A stretch of DNA of 64,000 nucleotides, taken from positions 1 through 64,000 of the forward strand of contig NZ_VITA01000008.1 in assembly GCF_007827695.1 (NCBI RefSeq), written 5' to 3'. Position numbers and translations under genes: made by a program. The notes below the pieces were generated by a model. It saw nothing but the letters and a program-made list of their open reading frames with translations, did no database searches and was not told the origin of the DNA. This document shows, piece after piece, positions 51,898 to 58,966 of the stretch (positions are counted from its first letter, which is position 1; every line of letters starts with the position of its first letter). This stretch comes from Sinorhizobium medicae (GTDB lineage Bacteria > Pseudomonadota > Alphaproteobacteria > Rhizobiales > Rhizobiaceae).

Positions 51898-52192
51898 TGG
51901 CGATCACGATCTTTGTTCAGAATCAGTCGGGTTTTTATAGCCGAATGCGGCTCGCAGCGCCAATTTTCGGCCGGTGTTTTGAACAGTCTTTTGCCGCTGG
52001 AGCGGGCTTTTCTAGGGCAGCGGCAGTGAATTGGGAAGAGCGCGCAAAGAAAGCTGCGTGCCTTGGGGTCGCGCTGGTTTAAGCCATTGCGCAGCACTTG
52101 GCTACCCGCTCTTTCCAAGCTTGCCGCGCTTGCCTAACAATGCGGGCACGCTACCGGGAAAAGCCGGGGCAAAAATCCGGAAGGGGACACGG

Positions 52193-52822
52193 ATGTTCGA
52201 TGTCGATCTCTTGATCAATGCGCTGACGACGCTGCTCGTCACGCTCGATCCGCCCGGCCTTGCGCCGATCTTCTTGAGCCTGACCGTCGGCCTGAATCGG
52301 CAGCAACGGTTTCAGGTGGCGACCCGTGGCTCGCTCATCGCCTTCTTCATCCTCGCCGCCTTCGCTCTCTTCGGTGACGGCATCCTCGGCCTGCTCGGCA
52401 TCTCGATCGGCGCCTTCCGCATTGCCGGCGGCATGCTGCTCTTCTGGATTGCTTTCGAGATGATTTTCGAGAAGCGTCAGGAGCGAAAGGAAAAGGCCGG
52501 GGAGACGGCGATCACGAAGGACCACCTTCACAACATTGCGGTTTTTCCGCTGGCGCTGCCCTTGATTGCAGGACCCGGGGCGATTTCGGCAACCATGCTC
52601 CTCGGAAGCTCCTTTCCCTCGGCGGTCGAGCGAATGCAGCTTATCGTCGTCCTTGCGGCATCGATGGCCATATTGTTCCTGGCGCTGGTGATCGCCGATC
52701 GTATCGACCGGTTCCTCGGCGTGACCGGGCGCGCGATCCTCACCCGCCTCCTCGGCGTCATCCTTGCGGCACTCGCCGTACAATTCGTCGTGGATGGCGT
52801 GCGCTCGGCGTTTCAGGTCTGA
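52193..52822 (+). CDS. MarC family integral membrane protein
   Basis: A 209-residue protein with six hydrophobic segments of the MarC/UPF0056 family (LLINALTTLLVTLDPPGLAPIFLSL, ALFGDGILGLLGISIGAFRIAGGMLLFWIA, AVFPLALPLIAGPGAISATMLL; given as landmarks). The PLALPLIAGPGAIS segment is the family signature. The function is unknown despite its name, which derives from the mar locus, where it has no proven role in drug resistance. The ATG at 52193 gives the family start; the long 5' frame to 52031 is not supported. It is next to gyrA in Sinorhizobium. Confidence 0.92.
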   Translation: MFDVDLLINALTTLLVTLDPPGLAPIFLSLTVGLNRQQRFQVATRGSLIAFFILAAFALFGDGILGLLGISIGAFRIAGGMLLFWIAFEMIFEKRQERKEKAGETAITKDHLHNIAVFPLALPLIAGPGAISATMLLGSSFPSAVERMQLIVVLAASMAILFLALVIADRIDRFLGVTGRAILTRLLGVILAALAVQFVVDGVRSAFQV

Positions 52823-53155
52823 ACGAAGCGCCACCATTCACGCCCTGGATGCAGCAGCCGGTAACGATGCCCCGAGAAGCTCATCGAGAGATGCCAAAGC
52901 TGCGGCGCGATAGTTGCCCCAAGGCGCAATATCGCTGCGGCTCGCCATGCGGTAGATTGCTCGCCATGAGTGCCGCTCGCAATCCATGACGGACGCTCTG
53001 GACCCTATTGCCGACCGAAAGGTTTCGCATCGCATTATTATCGCTTCAGTTGTTTTCTTGATTTCAGATTGAATACGCGACCGGCGCCCATTGAATTCCG
53101 CCGTGCGCCTGAGTGAATCACCGTTCGGCCGGAGATCTCAACGGAGGACTCTGAA
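52823..53155. other. Gap between MarC and the sulfatase gene
   Basis: A 333-base region without a supported gene. A 65-codon minus-strand frame (52838-53035) has no recognisable domain or ribosome site and is treated as chance. The AT content rises toward 53050-53080, where a promoter for the sulfatase gene is likely, but no consensus element could be fixed. It may contain the left border of the inserted periplasmic module. Confidence 0.35.
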
Positions 53156-54820
53156 ATGAATCGTAGAATTATCTGCGGCGTTGGAGCATTGGCTGCTTCC
53201 ACCGTCCTTTGGGGCGCGCTTGCCCCAGTGCAAGCTCAGGAGACGAGAAAGCCCAACATCCTGTTCATCGTGTCCGACGATACCGGCTACGGCGATCTCG
53301 GCCCTTACGGCGGCGGCGAGGGCCGCGGCATGCCTACGCCGAACATCGACAAGCTGGCGGATGAAGGCATGACCTTCTTTTCCTTCTACGCCCAACCAAG
53401 TTGCACGCCCGGCCGCGCTGCCATGCAGACCGGGCGCATTCCGAACCGCAGCGGCATGACCACGGTCGCCTTCCAGGGCGAGGGCGGTGGGCTGCCGGCA
53501 GCCGAATGGACGTTGGCGTCTGTGCTGAAACGCGGCGGGTACCAGACCTATTTCACCGGCAAGTGGCATCTCGGCGAGGCAGACTACGCGCTGCCGATCG
53601 CACAGGGCTACGATGAAATGAAATATGTCGGCCTCTATCATCTCAATGCCTACACTTATGCGGACGCAACCTGGTTCCCGGACATGGACCCGGAACTCAG
53701 GGCCATGTTCCAGAAAGTGACGAAAGGCTCGCTTTCCGGCAAAGCCGGCGGGGAGGTGACGGAGGACTTCAAAATCAACGGACAATACGTCGACACTCCC
53801 GTGATCGACGGTAAGCCCGGTGTCGTCGGGATCCCGTTCTTCGACGGCTATGTCGAAAAGGCGGCAATCGAATTCCTCGATGCCGCCGCCAAAAAGCCGG
53901 ATCAGCCGTTCTACATCAACGTGAACTTCATGAAGGTGCACCAGCCGAATCTTCCTGCCCCGGAGTTCCAGCATAAGTCCTTGTCAAAGACCAAATATGC
54001 GGACTCCGTCGTGGAGCTCGACACGCGCATCGGCAGGATCCTGGACAAGCTGCGTGAAACCGGCATGGACAGGAACACCCTGGTTTTCTACACGACCGAC
54101 AACGGGGCCTGGCAGGACGTCTATCCCGACGCCGGCTATACGCCGTTTCGCGGTACCAAGGGCACCGTGCGCGAGGGCGGCAATCGCGTTCCCGCCATCG
54201 CGGTCTGGCCCGGCAAGATCAAGCCGAGTTCGAAGAATCACGACATCGTCGGCGGCCTTGACCTGATGGCGACGTTCGCGGCAGCCGGCGGCGTCCCGCT
54301 TCCTGACAAGGACCGCGAAGACAAGCCGATCGTCTTCGACAGCTACGACATGTCGCCGGTTCTTCTCGGCACCGGCAAGTCGGCGCGCAAGTCCTGGTTC
54401 TACTTCACCGAGAACGAGTTGACGCCGGGCGCCGCCCGTGTCGGCAACTACAAGGCGGTGTTCAACCTGCGGGGTGACAACGGGCAATCGACCGGAGGAT
54501 TGGCAGTCGATTCCAATCTCGGCTGGAAGGGGGCGGAGAGCTATGTGGCGACAGTCCCGCAGGTCTTTGATCTCTGGCAGGATCCGCAGGAACGCTACGA
54601 CATTTTCATGAACAACTATACGGAGCACACCTGGACGATGGTGAGCATCAGCAACGCCATCGAGGAGTTGATGAAGACCTATGTGCAGCATCCGCCGCGC
54701 AAGCTGCAGAGCGAATCTTACAGCGGACCGCTTACGATCACCAGTTACCAGCGCTTTGAGTGGGCGCGCCAGCAACTTGGGAAGGAAGGCGTGAACATCC
54801 CGCTACCGACAGGCAACTGA
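53156..54820 (+). CDS. Exported arylsulfatase (Cys-type)
   Basis: A 554-residue sulfatase with a signal peptide (residues 1-28, LAPVQAQ). The metal-site Asp pair is in FIVSDDTGYGDLGPYG at 41-42, and the formylglycine-forming motif is CTPGR at 83-87, the CxPxR type that is converted to formylglycine before catalysis. KWHLGEADYAL and YTTDNGAW complete the active site. It hydrolyses sulfate esters in the periplasm; the substrate is unknown. It needs a maturase (FGE or anSME) that is not in the window. The ATG has GGAGG nine bases upstream. It heads a group of three periplasmic proteins. Confidence 0.92.
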   Translation: MNRRIICGVGALAASTVLWGALAPVQAQETRKPNILFIVSDDTGYGDLGPYGGGEGRGMPTPNIDKLADEGMTFFSFYAQPSCTPGRAAMQTGRIPNRSGMTTVAFQGEGGGLPAAEWTLASVLKRGGYQTYFTGKWHLGEADYALPIAQGYDEMKYVGLYHLNAYTYADATWFPDMDPELRAMFQKVTKGSLSGKAGGEVTEDFKINGQYVDTPVIDGKPGVVGIPFFDGYVEKAAIEFLDAAAKKPDQPFYINVNFMKVHQPNLPAPEFQHKSLSKTKYADSVVELDTRIGRILDKLRETGMDRNTLVFYTTDNGAWQDVYPDAGYTPFRGTKGTVREGGNRVPAIAVWPGKIKPSSKNHDIVGGLDLMATFAAAGGVPLPDKDREDKPIVFDSYDMSPVLLGTGKSARKSWFYFTENELTPGAARVGNYKAVFNLRGDNGQSTGGLAVDSNLGWKGAESYVATVPQVFDLWQDPQERYDIFMNNYTEHTWTMVSISNAIEELMKTYVQHPPRKLQSESYSGPLTITSYQRFEWARQQLGKEGVNIPLPTGN

Positions 54821-54831
54821 TCCGTCCAACC

Positions 54832-54858
54832 ACGGCCCCGGCGAGAAGCCGGGGCCGT
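54832..54858 (+). terminator. Hairpin after the sulfatase gene
   Basis: ACGGCCCCGGC (54832-54842) pairs perfectly with GCCGGGGCCGT (54848-54858) around GAGAA; TTTCGTC follows. Partial read-through into the HAD gene is plausible, since the gap to its ATG is only 57 bases. Confidence 0.75.
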
Positions 54859-54915
54859 TTCGTCGTCCGGGCGACGGTCGCAAGACCGCGCCGATCGCCA
54901 ATGGAGGTGCCCGCA

Positions 54916-55929
54916 ATGTTTTCGGCGTATAATTTCTTTCAACTGGCTCGCCGTGCCACGGCCGGCGCAGCGATCTACCTTCTTGCCCTTGCGCCTTTGC
55001 ATGCACAGTCGGATCCCCTGCCCTCGTGGAACGACACCGCTCCGAAGGCGGCGATTGTCGCTTTCGTCGAAAAGGTGACCATGGAAAGCTCGCCCGACTT
55101 CGTTCCGGAATCGGAGCGCATCGCCGTCTTCGACAATGACGGCACGCTGTGGGTCGAGCATCCGGCTTACACACAGTTCGCCTTCGCGCTCGACCGGGTC
55201 AAGGCCGAGGCACCAGCGCATCCGGAGTGGAAAGACACTCAACCCTTCAAGGCGGCACTCGAGGGCGACATGAAGGCCCTTGCTGCAGCAGGCGAGAAGG
55301 GCCTTGTCGAGCTTATCATGGCGACCCATGCGGGTATGACCAGCGACGAGTTCCAGAAGGTCGTTTCCGACTGGATCGCGACCGCGCGCGACCCCAGATT
55401 CGAGAAGCCCTATACCGAGCTTGTCTACCAGCCGATGCTTGAACTGCTCACCTATCTGCGCGCCAACGGTTTCAAGACCTATATCGTGTCCGGAGGGGGC
55501 ATCGAGTTCATGCGCCCGTGGGTCGAACAGGTCTACGGCGTGCCTCCCGAGCAGGTGCTGGGCTCATCCATAAAGACGCAGTTCGAGATGCGTAACGGCA
55601 CCCCGACCCTGTTCCGCCTGCCTGAAGTGAACTTCATCGACGACAAAGCGGGCAAGCCGGTCGGCATCAACGCGCATATCGGCCGCCGCCCGATCGCCGC
55701 CTTCGGCAATTCCGACGGCGACCTCGAAATGCTGCAATGGACGACATTGGCAGGCGAAACCGCCCGCTTCGGCATGATCATTCACCACACTGACGCAGAT
55801 CGCGAATACGCTTACGATCGGGACACCGAGTTCGGACGTCTGGACAAGGCGCTTGATGCGGCGGCGATAAACAAATGGACCGTTGTCGACATGAAGGCGG
55901 ACTGGAAGCAAGTCTTTCCAGACAAATAA
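54916..55929 (+). CDS. Exported HAD-family phosphatase
   Basis: A 337-residue haloacid-dehalogenase superfamily phosphatase with an N-terminal signal peptide (residues 1-30, LAPLHA). Motif I is AVFDNDGTLW, residues 70-79, with catalytic Asp73 and Asp75; motif II is YIVSGGG; motif IV is AFGNSDGDLEMLQW. It resembles phosphoserine-phosphatase-like acid phosphatases, here in the periplasm. The substrate is not assignable. The ATG at 54916 has GGAGGTGCCCGCA upstream; the longer frame to 54760 overlaps the sulfatase gene and is rejected. It lies between the sulfatase and cytochrome genes on the same strand. Confidence 0.88.
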   Translation: MFSAYNFFQLARRATAGAAIYLLALAPLHAQSDPLPSWNDTAPKAAIVAFVEKVTMESSPDFVPESERIAVFDNDGTLWVEHPAYTQFAFALDRVKAEAPAHPEWKDTQPFKAALEGDMKALAAAGEKGLVELIMATHAGMTSDEFQKVVSDWIATARDPRFEKPYTELVYQPMLELLTYLRANGFKTYIVSGGGIEFMRPWVEQVYGVPPEQVLGSSIKTQFEMRNGTPTLFRLPEVNFIDDKAGKPVGINAHIGRRPIAAFGNSDGDLEMLQWTTLAGETARFGMIIHHTDADREYAYDRDTEFGRLDKALDAAAINKWTVVDMKADWKQVFPDK

Positions 55930-55972
55930 GGTTGCGGGCCGAAGGCTCGGCGCTTTCACGAAGGGAGCATTG

Positions 55973-58381
55973 GTGAGCGCAGGTTCGACGAAACCGCCGC
56001 TGATGTCGGCCACGTCTCCGGCCGAGGTTTTCCGTCGCGTCTTTTCGGGCGCTATCCGCTATCTGCCAAAACTCGGCATCCGAGTCCTCCGCCCGCATTT
56101 GTGCCTTCGACGTGCGGCGCTTCGTTGGATGGCTTTGGCGCTCTGTTGCGTGCTTACGCTCTTCGGAACTGCGGCTGCGGCAGAAGAGAGGAAGGCTCCG
56201 GGCGACCCGCTGATCGCAATTCATGACGGCTTCGCGGACGAGAAAACCTGCTCATCCTGTCATGCCGAACAGGCGGCCGCTTTCGCCGCGTCGCATCACG
56301 CGAGGGCGATGGCTGTCGCCGATGAACAGTCGGTACGGGCAGACTTCAACGGCACCCGGTTCGAGGACGTCGGTATCGCAGCGGACTTCTTTCGCCGAGA
56401 TGACCGCTTCTTCGTCCGCACCGAAGGGCCGGATGGCAGGCAATCGGATTACGAAGTCAAATATACATTCGCCTATGAGCCTCTACAGCAGTACCTGATC
56501 GATCTCGGCGGCGGCAGGCTGCAGGCTCTCGACATCGCCTGGGATACGCGAAAGCAGACCTGGTTCTGGCTGGGCGAAGGCAGCGCGGCAAAACCGGGCT
56601 CCACATTTCATTGGACGGGGCCGTTCTACCGCTGGAACCGCACCTGCATCGACTGTCATTCCACCGACCCACGGGCCAATTTCCAGCCGCAGGCGAACGA
56701 GTACAAGTCGTCCTATGTGGCGACCGGCATCGGCTGCCAGTCCTGCCATGGCGGCGGCGCAAAGCACGTCGAATGGGCCAAGACCAAAGCGGGAGGTGTC
56801 TCGGCGGACATGGCAGATCCAAGCCTGGCGAAGGTCGACGTGAACACCTGCTTCGCCTGCCACGCGCGGCGCACCAGACTTGTCGACGGCTACCGGCCGG
56901 GAGGAGCCTTTCTCGACCATTTTTCCCCCGCGTTGCTTCGCAGCGACCTATATTTCCCGGACGGACAGATCCTCGACGAGGTTTTCGAATACGGCTCCTT
57001 CCAGCAGAGCAAGATGGCAAAGGCCGGCGTCACCTGTTTCGACTGCCACAGGGCACACGAAGGTACCGTAAAGGCCGCCGGTAACGCGCTGTGCACCCAA
57101 TGTCACGCCGAGACCGCGCCGGAGCGTTTTGCCAGCAACGATCCGAGCGGCGCGTTCGATACGCCCGCACACACGCATCACCCCGAAGGCTCAGCTGGCG
57201 CTCTTTGTGCCAACTGCCACATGCCGGAACGTACCTACATGAAGGTGGACCCCCGGCGCGACCACTCTTTCGTGATCCCTCGCCCCGACCTTTCCGCGAT
57301 CTACGGCACCCCGAATGCATGCATCGCATGCCATGTCGGCAAAACGAATGCGTGGGCGTCCGAGAGTATGGACGAATGGTATGGAAAGGGATGGCGTGAA
57401 CGCCCGACAATCGCCCATGCCTTCGCAGCAGCGGCGCGGGATGATGCTGCCGCAATAGAGAAGCTGCGCGGATTTCTGGCCGACCGCCAGCAACCGGGCA
57501 TCGTCAGGGGCAGCGCAATCGGAGAAATGACAAGGCTCGATGGGGCAGCCGCGGCCGCGGACGTCAGAGTGGCCGCGGCGGACCCCGATCCGCTCGTCCG
57601 GCTGGGAGCAGCCGAGGCGGCTGCCAACCTGCCGCCCGAGCTGCGGCCAGACGTGATCGGCGGCCTGCTTGGCGACGAAACCCGAGCTGTCCGGGTGGCC
57701 GCCATCAGGGTCCTTGGCGCCACTCCCTCACTGGAGCTTCTCGGCGATCGACGGCGGGCCTTCGAGGCCGCCGCCGGCGACTTGCGCGGCTTTGTCCAGG
57801 CCAACGCGGACAGCGCCGAGGCGCAAGGCACCTACGGGTCGTTCCTGTTCGAGCAGAGGCGCACGGACGAGGCGGAAAAGGCATTCCGGCAGGCGATCAC
57901 CCTTGATCCGACGTTTTCGGGCGCGCGCATCAACCTTGCCGAGCTCTATCGCGCCAGCGGCGACAACGAGAAATCGGAACAGGCTTACGCCGAAGCAGTC
58001 GCGGCCAATCCGGATCTGGCAGACCTTCGCTATGGACATGGCCTGTCGCTTGTCCGTCAAAAGGCCATGCAGGAAGCGATCGAGGAGTTGGGAGCGGCAG
58101 TGCGTCTGGAACCCGCCAATACTCGATACAGGATGACGGCGGCCATCGCGCTCGATGCGGTCGGCCGAACGGAGGACGCTTTCGGACTGTTCGATCCGGC
58201 CGATGCGGGTGGTACGACAGATGCCGATCTGCTCGGCACTGCCATTCAAATCGGGCTCAAACTTGGACGCTATGCCGAGACGCTCGCTTTTGCCGAAGCG
58301 CTCGCCCAGCTTCGGCCCCATGACCCGCGGACCGCAGAACTCGTCAGGCAATTACAGGATGCAGTTCGACAGGGCAGATAA
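55973..58381 (+). CDS. Octahaem cytochrome c fused to HEAT and TPR repeats
   Basis: An 802-residue exported protein. A hydrophobic signal/anchor lies near residues 50-70 (ALALCCVLTLFGTAAAAEE). Eight CXXCH haem-binding motifs follow within 360 residues (CSSCH, CIDCH, CQSCH, CFACH, CFDCH, CTQCH, CANCH, CIACH, in that order). The C-terminal part has HEAT-like Ala-rich repeats (about 500-600) and TPRs (about 620-770). It resembles cytochrome c554/NrfA-type multihaem proteins with added scaffold repeats, uncommon in rhizobia. The likely start is GTG at 55973 (AAGGGAG upstream); TTG at 55970 is possible, and an ATG at 56129 would keep the signal peptide. The role and redox partner are unknown. Confidence 0.9.
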   Translation: MSAGSTKPPLMSATSPAEVFRRVFSGAIRYLPKLGIRVLRPHLCLRRAALRWMALALCCVLTLFGTAAAAEERKAPGDPLIAIHDGFADEKTCSSCHAEQAAAFAASHHARAMAVADEQSVRADFNGTRFEDVGIAADFFRRDDRFFVRTEGPDGRQSDYEVKYTFAYEPLQQYLIDLGGGRLQALDIAWDTRKQTWFWLGEGSAAKPGSTFHWTGPFYRWNRTCIDCHSTDPRANFQPQANEYKSSYVATGIGCQSCHGGGAKHVEWAKTKAGGVSADMADPSLAKVDVNTCFACHARRTRLVDGYRPGGAFLDHFSPALLRSDLYFPDGQILDEVFEYGSFQQSKMAKAGVTCFDCHRAHEGTVKAAGNALCTQCHAETAPERFASNDPSGAFDTPAHTHHPEGSAGALCANCHMPERTYMKVDPRRDHSFVIPRPDLSAIYGTPNACIACHVGKTNAWASESMDEWYGKGWRERPTIAHAFAAAARDDAAAIEKLRGFLADRQQPGIVRGSAIGEMTRLDGAAAAADVRVAAADPDPLVRLGAAEAAANLPPELRPDVIGGLLGDETRAVRVAAIRVLGATPSLELLGDRRRAFEAAAGDLRGFVQANADSAEAQGTYGSFLFEQRRTDEAEKAFRQAITLDPTFSGARINLAELYRASGDNEKSEQAYAEAVAANPDLADLRYGHGLSLVRQKAMQEAIEELGAAVRLEPANTRYRMTAAIALDAVGRTEDAFGLFDPADAGGTTDADLLGTAIQIGLKLGRYAETLAFAEALAQLRPHDPRTAELVRQLQDAVRQGR

Positions 58382-58453
58382 GTGGCTTCCTCGCGGACGT
58401 CGTCGGCCCGCAACGAAGCGGGCCGATGATCGCAGCGTTGCTGCCGTCGTCGA

Positions 58454-58966
58454 TCAGAACGGAATGTCGTCGTCGAGATCGCGCGAGAAGTTGCCGCCCT
58501 GGTTCGACTGGCCGCCCGACCGGGCGCCTGACGATTGCCCCCGCGACTGATCGTATTCCTCGTATCCGCCGCCTCCGAGATCGCTGCCGCCGCGGCTCGC
58601 ACCGCCGCCCTCGCCGCGGCCGTCTAGCATCGTCAGCGTCGAATTGAAGCCCTGCAGGACGATCTCGGTCGAATAGCGGTCATTGCCGTTCTGGTCCTGC
58701 CATTTGCGGGTCTGCAACTGGCCTTCGATATAGAGTTTGGCGCCCTTTTTCACATATTGCTCGATGACTTTGCAAAGACCCTCGTTGAAGACGACGACAG
58801 TATGCCATTCCGTCTTCTCCCGGCGCTCGCCGGAGTTACGGTCGCGCCAGCTTTCGGAGGTGGCAATTCTGAGATTGGCAATCGGCCGGCCATCCTGCGT
58901 GCGCCGGATTTCCGGGTCGGCCCCGACATTTCCGATCAAGATCACCTTGTTGACGCTACCAGCCAT
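58454..58966 (-). CDS. ssb: Single-stranded DNA-binding protein
   Basis: A 170-residue SSB that coats single-stranded DNA in replication and repair. The OB fold begins [17 protein letters not shown] and includes [30 protein letters not shown] (residues 30-59). A Gly-rich linker ([18 protein letters not shown]) leads to the acidic partner-binding tail DDDIPF. It is divergent from uvrA; the region between holds a LexA box that may control both. The ATG at 58966 gives the standard start. Confidence 0.97.

Follow-up and report, generated by a model that had tools for sequence, protein, structure and literature searches.

Here we describe a cassette of three genes in a stretch of 64,000 nucleotides from Sinorhizobium medicae (contig NZ_VITA01000008.1; the whole stretch is called the window below), which encodes an exported Cys-type sulfatase, an exported HAD-fold hydrolase and an octahaem c-type cytochrome ending in HEAT and TPR repeats. 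The cassette sits as an insertion between two conserved genes, its cytochrome is linked to sulfatase genes in two phyla, and the occurrence of this cytochrome complements, between families, that of the sulfatase-maturing enzymes FGE and anSME. To our knowledge only these two unrelated enzymes make formylglycine, a rare modified residue that sulfatases need. From comparative evidence only, we consider it an even bet that the cassette combines a sulfatase with its own periplasmic maturation system, which would turn the sulfatase cysteine into formylglycine.

Results

A sulfatase, a HAD hydrolase and an octahaem cytochrome in a row

The original prediction had proposed three exported proteins in a row, and the coordinates, motifs and domain matches bear this out:

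53156..54820, forward strand: exported Cys-type sulfatase of 554 amino acids, with the motif CTPGR and a Sec-like signal peptide
54916..55929, forward strand: exported HAD-fold hydrolase (DNDGT), a relative of PDB 4ovy, with the start chosen by related proteins
55973..58381, forward strand: octahaem c-type cytochrome with HEAT and TPR repeats, 802 amino acids, starting at GTG
57416..58378, forward strand: HEAT and then TPR repeats of the cytochrome, about residues 482-802, from domain matches and the predicted model

The sulfatase, whose active-site motif reads PSCTPGRAA in its context, matches PF00884 (1e-46; 160 bits against a cut-off of 25) and also PF14707, which places it among the S1 sulfatases; its nearest solved chain is 7aj0 (1.7e-69). 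The second protein matches PF12710 above the cut-off (3.3e-14) and carries the DxDGT motif as FDNDGTLW, which places it in the HAD superfamily, and it matches PDB 4ovy at 1e-131. Its gene starts at 54901 or 54916, giving 342 or 337 amino acids, and three of four related proteins favour the shorter form. The cytochrome contains exactly eight CXXCH motifs (residues 93, 225, 255, 293, 355, 374, 412 and 450) and matches cytochrome, HEAT_2 (best stretch 508-581) and TPR families. This arrangement is not due to chance, since full-length relatives with eight CXXCH recur in other rhizobia, in other Pseudomonadota and in one member of the Bacteroidota. None of the three cassette proteins matches PF03781, the FGE domain, or the radical SAM domain of anSME.

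Linkage of cytochrome and sulfatase in two phyla

A cytochrome-domain profile was run against samples of 385 Alphaproteobacteria and 398 Pseudomonadota species and matched in 9 and 35 species, respectively, always above 430 bits except for three partial frames. To quantify linkage, we compared 48 cytochrome loci (stretches of 20 kb or less) with 12 control stretches from the same genomes, scoring neighbours in the 48 loci with a custom-built profile and not with Pfam. A sulfatase was present in the stretch in 33 of the 48 loci and in none of the 12 controls, at a distance from the cytochrome of at most 1 kb in 23 loci and of at most 3 kb in 30; a PF00884 gene is expected in about 2.8% of random 20-kb stretches. 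Among seven distant plasmid loci with annotation, an arylsulfatase adjoins the cytochrome or lies one or two genes off in six (Methylocystis, Methylosinus, two Pseudoalteromonas, Vibrio and the Bacteroidota member Aureibacter, where the arylsulfatase is split), while the seventh, from Qingshengfaniella, has no arylsulfatase near the cytochrome. Gene orientations vary among the loci, as do the sulfatase subfamilies (CTPGR, CTAGR and an 800-residue CSPTR type). The linkage of cytochrome and sulfatase in two phyla is a solid observation.

The HAD gene is not part of this pattern. Its profile matched only 5 of the 48 loci, and a fixed three-gene module as the general unit was rejected on this count: the general unit is the cytochrome with a sulfatase, and the HAD protein is a rhizobial and occasional partner.

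Other neighbours were also seen. Across 59 loci, genes for a MoxR ATPase (15), DUF58 (15), VWA (16) and BatD-like proteins (13) stand near the cytochrome. Downstream of it, L127:700-8311, L118, L138 and others carry MoxR ATPase, DUF58, DUF4381, two VWA, BatD-like and LysR-like genes, an order conserved from MoxR to the LysR-like gene in several genomes outside the class. In Aureibacter (L056:8096-9865), genes for a cytochrome b and a Rieske protein lie directly upstream of the cytochrome, a hint at the electron destination.

Complementary occurrence with FGE and anSME

Canonical FGE was defined as a PF03781 protein with both cysteines, and anSME as a score over its cut-off. All 40 cytochrome genomes contain PF00884 proteins, a family that also includes non-sulfatases. 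With every FGE candidate scored, canonical FGE was found in six of them (G000, G507, G511, G706, G720 and G054); the PF03781 matches of the other 34 were read for the Cys pair, which is absent from all of them, and G625 and G747 have no match at all. anSME exceeds its cut-off in 8 of the 40, and 26 have neither enzyme. In four genomes (L257-L260 of G642, G574, G471 and G717), FGE-like proteins without the Cys pair adjoin anSME genes, about 10-20 kb from the cytochrome.

The 398-genome phylum sample was then compared for the sulfatase family that stands beside the cytochrome, for FGE and, in the 23 genomes with this sulfatase and without the cytochrome, for anSME. The comparison used 100 sulfatase rows, 26 anSME rows over the cut-off and 40 of 73 FGE rows, namely those in genomes with the sulfatase family plus some others. 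At most three sulfatase and four FGE candidates were scored per genome, which undercounts copies and may miss low-ranked FGE; FGE matches outside the cytochrome genomes were read for the Cys pair in part, and some (e.g. G688) align partly. The sulfatase family occurs in 51 of the 398 species, FGE in 60 of 398, and anSME over the cut-off in 5 of the 23. Among the 51 species, the cytochrome is found alone in 16, with anSME in 7 and with FGE in 5, while those without the cytochrome have FGE only (17), anSME only (5) or none (one, G588, with a weak sulfatase match of 309 bits). For sulfatases of at least 500 bits (47 species), FGE or anSME is present in 20 of 20 species without the cytochrome versus 11 of 27 with it (Fisher 9e-6). 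This complementary occurrence lies between families and is not independent of ancestry.

The partners also interchange beside the same sulfatase family. Within 6 kb of 100 family sulfatases, one known or candidate maturase gene (FGE, anSME or the cytochrome) stands near 49, and never two of them. The stretches used for motif reading had, on the FGE and anSME sides, been selected for having that neighbour. The anSME-side copies have Ser in place of the Cys nucleophile in five of five (L342-L346), the FGE-side copies read CTAGR in 14 with three unread, and the cytochrome-side copies are Cys-type in all 41 read of 43. A tree of 60 sulfatase copies needs 12 partner changes, where the minimum possible is 2, and on its supported branches the cytochrome label must have been gained or lost at least 10 times; as expected for relatives, partner labels nevertheless cluster more than they do after shuffling. 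In seven cytochrome genomes without either maturase (G625, G747, G703, G721, G748, G652 and G274), 35 sulfatase rows, covering part of their sulfatases, were collected; the 30 that were readable are all Cys-type and belong to several subfamilies. Tat signals were found on 5 of 17 FGE-side versus 1 of 38 cytochrome-side copies (p 0.009), which fits action of FGE before export and of the cytochrome after it.

Fold and haem ligands of the cytochrome

The following parts of the cytochrome were assigned:

56228..57391, forward strand: OcwA/MccA-like cytochrome domain, about residues 86-473, from a predicted model of residues 78-480
56309..56569, forward strand: beta-sheet domain between haem 1 and haem 2, with a PLQQY motif, residues 113-199, from the predicted model
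56645..56659, forward strand: CIDCH of haem 2, residues 225-229, the predicted open haem, from ligand counts and analogy with OcwA and MccA

Structure prediction for the 802-residue protein gave a mean pLDDT of 87.9. Because a search with this full-length model was filled by TPR matches, with OcwA as the sole cytochrome among the best 50 rows, the cytochrome domain was folded alone (mean pLDDT 85.8). The domain model matches OcwA (6i5b; Z 21.8, rmsd 3.4, 332 aligned), an undecahaem cytochrome (Z 13.5) and MccA (4rkm; Z 9.6, rmsd 4.5, 282 aligned), with hydroxylamine oxidoreductase listed weakly (Z 4.3). As modelled, the haem domain has the fold of OcwA and MccA, members of the NrfA superfamily, including the beta-sheet domain between haems 1 and 2. 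MccA has eight haems, as does the cassette cytochrome, which differs from both proteins in its HEAT/TPR arm, its linkage to sulfatases and a domain devoid of free cysteines.

Exactly six His outside CXXCH are invariant in 51 sequences (109, 265, 362, 400, 403 and 431), together with Met 348, 417 and 423. Six invariant His and an invariant Met would fit six bis-His haems, one His-Met haem and one open haem. For OcwA, the published description gives six bis-His haems, one His-Met haem and two open haems; haems 1-4 and 6-9 align with those of MccA, in which haem 2 is the active one, and the beta-sheet domain is common to both (PMC6703420). From the ligand counts and this comparison, haem 2 of the cassette cytochrome is predicted to be open.

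Insertion between marC and ssb

The flanking genes, named from their sequences, are gyrA and marC upstream and ssb and uvrA downstream:

52151..52822, forward strand: marC, left flank
52824..58403, no strand: inserted segment between marC and ssb, with ends set by the two closest of the four empty sites aligned by blastn
58454..58966, reverse strand: ssb, right flank

Homology to the two closest empty sites (L314 and L315) ends at 52823 and restarts at 58404, about 13 bp being replaced, and with two more empty sites the insertion ends agree within 50 bp. In a survey of the genus, 33 genomes had a marC match, three of them yielding no locus, and 30 marC loci were read. ssb stands next to marC without the cassette in 27 of the 30 (in one at about 1.1 kb), and the cassette occupies the site in two, the window's genome (G000) and G022; in L337 neither state was resolved within 1.5 kb of marC. 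Acquisition judged by composition was rejected, as cassette and window are alike in GC content (0.619 and 0.611), and the insertion call thus rests on the empty sites.

These data establish the cassette as an insertion after marC in a Sinorhizobium-type chromosome, in line with the original prediction of an insertion into a conserved neighbourhood; an occupied marC-ssb site is not ancestral for the genus. The cassette entered after marC either before two close species split or by transfer between them.

Distribution in rhizobia

Counting the window and merging duplicates, we distinguished 16 rhizobial loci. The three genes, which had been proposed to form a module, are mostly not separate here: all three are present in 14 of the 16, so that this part of the proposal stands in rhizobia, and outside them it gives way to the pair of cytochrome and sulfatase. 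Among the 14, L048 has only parts of the sulfatase and HAD genes, and frames are broken in L008 and L011; of the remaining two, L046 has no HAD gene found and L049 is a fragment. L048 and L049, both from G027, are possible signs of loss in the genus. The sulfatase adjoining the HAD gene is a 32% relative in L005 and L047, and L009 carries both sulfatase kinds.

A genome scan gave nine full relatives of the cytochrome (Ensifer USDA 6670, R. giardinii, three Phyllobacterium, S. psoraleae, two Rhizobium strains and one further member of the Rhizobiales) and two further loci that match the TPR part only. The supposed rarity of multihaem cytochromes in rhizobia did not hold: 150 plasmid records carry this cytochrome, 127 of them from Rhizobium or Sinorhizobium, and 125 match over 80% of its length, yet the full type occurs in only 7 of 33 species genomes of the genus (E 5.3e-130 or better), most other rows being TPR matches. 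The window's own genome has the cytochrome twice, on C8 and C21, the latter (G000:C21:41002-43407, L044) within a second whole cassette whose cytochrome is 78% identical.

Plasmid pSymA of S. meliloti 1021 also carries the cytochrome, at NC_003037 943419-945806, preceded by the sulfatase and HAD genes. In two published tables, SMa1682 (nonspecific acid phosphatase) is higher in a phaR mutant (PMC12542648) and SMa1683 (arylsulfatase) is lower in a tolC mutant (PMC2912261). From these product names, and not from coordinates, we infer that they are the HAD and sulfatase genes of the pSymA cassette.

Discussion

A link to formylglycine maturation was offered in the original prediction as speculation; it has since gained comparative support, and the role itself is still put forward conditionally. 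Of the readings considered, a maturation role best joins the linkage, the complementarity, the interchange of partners and the fold, and our confidence in it stands near the midpoint. Mechanistically, the sulfatase would leave by its Sec-like signal with the active-site cysteine unmodified, the HEAT/TPR arm of the octahaem cytochrome would hold it, and the cytochrome would remove two electrons from the cysteine to give formylglycine. The open haem 2 would be the likely contact point, the row of haems conducting the electrons away, and the HAD protein may serve as an accessory hydrolase. Chemically, the thiol would lose two electrons to the haems to become a thioaldehyde, whose hydrolysis would yield the aldehyde and sulfide; we know of no precedent for such chemistry. 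Tentatively, and with rather less than even confidence, we extend this to a third, haem-based and O2-independent route to formylglycine, in which the exported cytochrome binds the sulfatase through HEAT/TPR and converts its Cys at an open haem in the periplasm, replacing FGE and anSME in many Proteobacteria.

The cytochrome could instead be a redox enzyme whose target is what the sulfatase consumes or releases, in a pathway that breaks down certain sulfate esters. The solved relatives do act on small molecules, OcwA reducing nitrite and reacting with hydroxylamine and MccA reducing sulfite (PMC6703420), and the rhizobial cassette includes a hydrolase, the HAD protein, that fits such a pathway. 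However, the cytochrome adjoins sulfatases of the CTPGR, CTAGR and 800-residue CSPTR subfamilies alike, and a catabolic function does not predict the frequent lack of FGE and anSME, so we regard it as unlikely. It is less probable still that the cytochrome is only an electron acceptor or scaffold and that another protein is the catalyst, for example one of the MoxR-DUF58-VWA-BatD operon nearby. The counts of these genes near the cytochrome fit this reading, as do the Aureibacter cytochrome b and Rieske genes, but the operon genes are missing from most of the 59 loci, no genome-wide search for them having been made. A further possibility is a respiratory or extracellular electron-transfer cytochrome merely riding with sulfatase genes. 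In its favour, the solved structure nearest in fold, OcwA, has been described as a terminal reductase (PMC6703420); the linkage recurs in different contexts and orientations, however, and the haem domain continues into HEAT/TPR repeats, which makes this very improbable.

Several observations weigh against the maturation reading itself. Near 51 of the 100 family sulfatases there is no FGE, anSME or cytochrome gene within 6 kb, and 15 of the 48 cytochrome loci have no sulfatase in the stretch. FGE or anSME is also present in 12 of the 28 sampled species with both the cytochrome and the sulfatase family. One of the 12 is the window's genome, which has FGE, so that the cassette would not be its only maturation route. 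Shuffling FGE within families gave no signal of within-family complementarity (p 0.50). In a pair test on the sulfatase tree, for which some rows had been selected by their FGE or anSME neighbour, there were nine pairs, about five as expected, none opposite and the rest equal (median p 0.06). Sec-like signals are also found on 10 of 17 FGE-side sulfatases. Choline sulfatase occurs in 5 of 34 FGE-less cytochrome genomes versus 12 of 23 FGE genomes; the four copies read (L302-L305) are all Cys-type, none has a clear signal peptide, and a periplasmic system would for that reason not reach them. The genomes of L302-L305 have no canonical FGE and no anSME over the cut-off. The strict prediction that FGE-less genomes hold no cytosolic sulfatase thus failed, which argues against the cytochrome as an exclusive route. 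S. meliloti choline sulfatase works unmodified (PMC6189696), and this may or may not excuse the FGE-less cases. Finally, every one of the 16 Cys beyond residue 59 belongs to a CXXCH motif. The cytochrome domain, having no free Cys, thus lacks a copper site like that of FGE, a copper oxygenase with a Cys pair, or of MccA, where cysteines hold the copper. An MccA-like site, with copper at haem 2 (PMC6703420), was ruled out on the same ground.

FGE (formylglycine-generating enzyme, SUMF1, PF03781) adjoins the same sulfatase family in other genomes and has the reaction outcome that is proposed for the cytochrome, but it is an unrelated protein; the cytochrome is exported and carries haem motifs. 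anSME (AtsB; radical SAM, TIGR03942) also adjoins this family and would have O2 independence in common with the cytochrome; it is likewise unrelated, and unlike those of the cytochrome its partner sulfatases that were read are Ser-type. A third sulfatase maturation activity was reportedly found in E. coli (Benjdia 2007, as cited in PMC6189696). This cytochrome is not known from E. coli and would accordingly not explain that case. The likeness to our proposal lies in Cys-type sulfatases modified by a machinery not yet named, and PMC6189696, citing work of 2007, calls the E. coli machinery elusive. Among the matches listed from open-licence literature, no paper links a cytochrome with sulfatase maturation, and the system appears, as first suggested, to be undescribed in the literature searched.

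The newness of the cytochrome as a category is tied to the maturation reading; otherwise it is a cytochrome of the OcwA/MccA kind, and should that reading fail it remains a widely shared sulfatase partner. If the reading is true, a multihaem cytochrome at work in the periplasm would add a new kind to the enzymes that modify proteins. It would explain how sulfatases are activated in many bacteria without FGE or anSME, and it would offer a new way of placing aldehyde tags on proteins.

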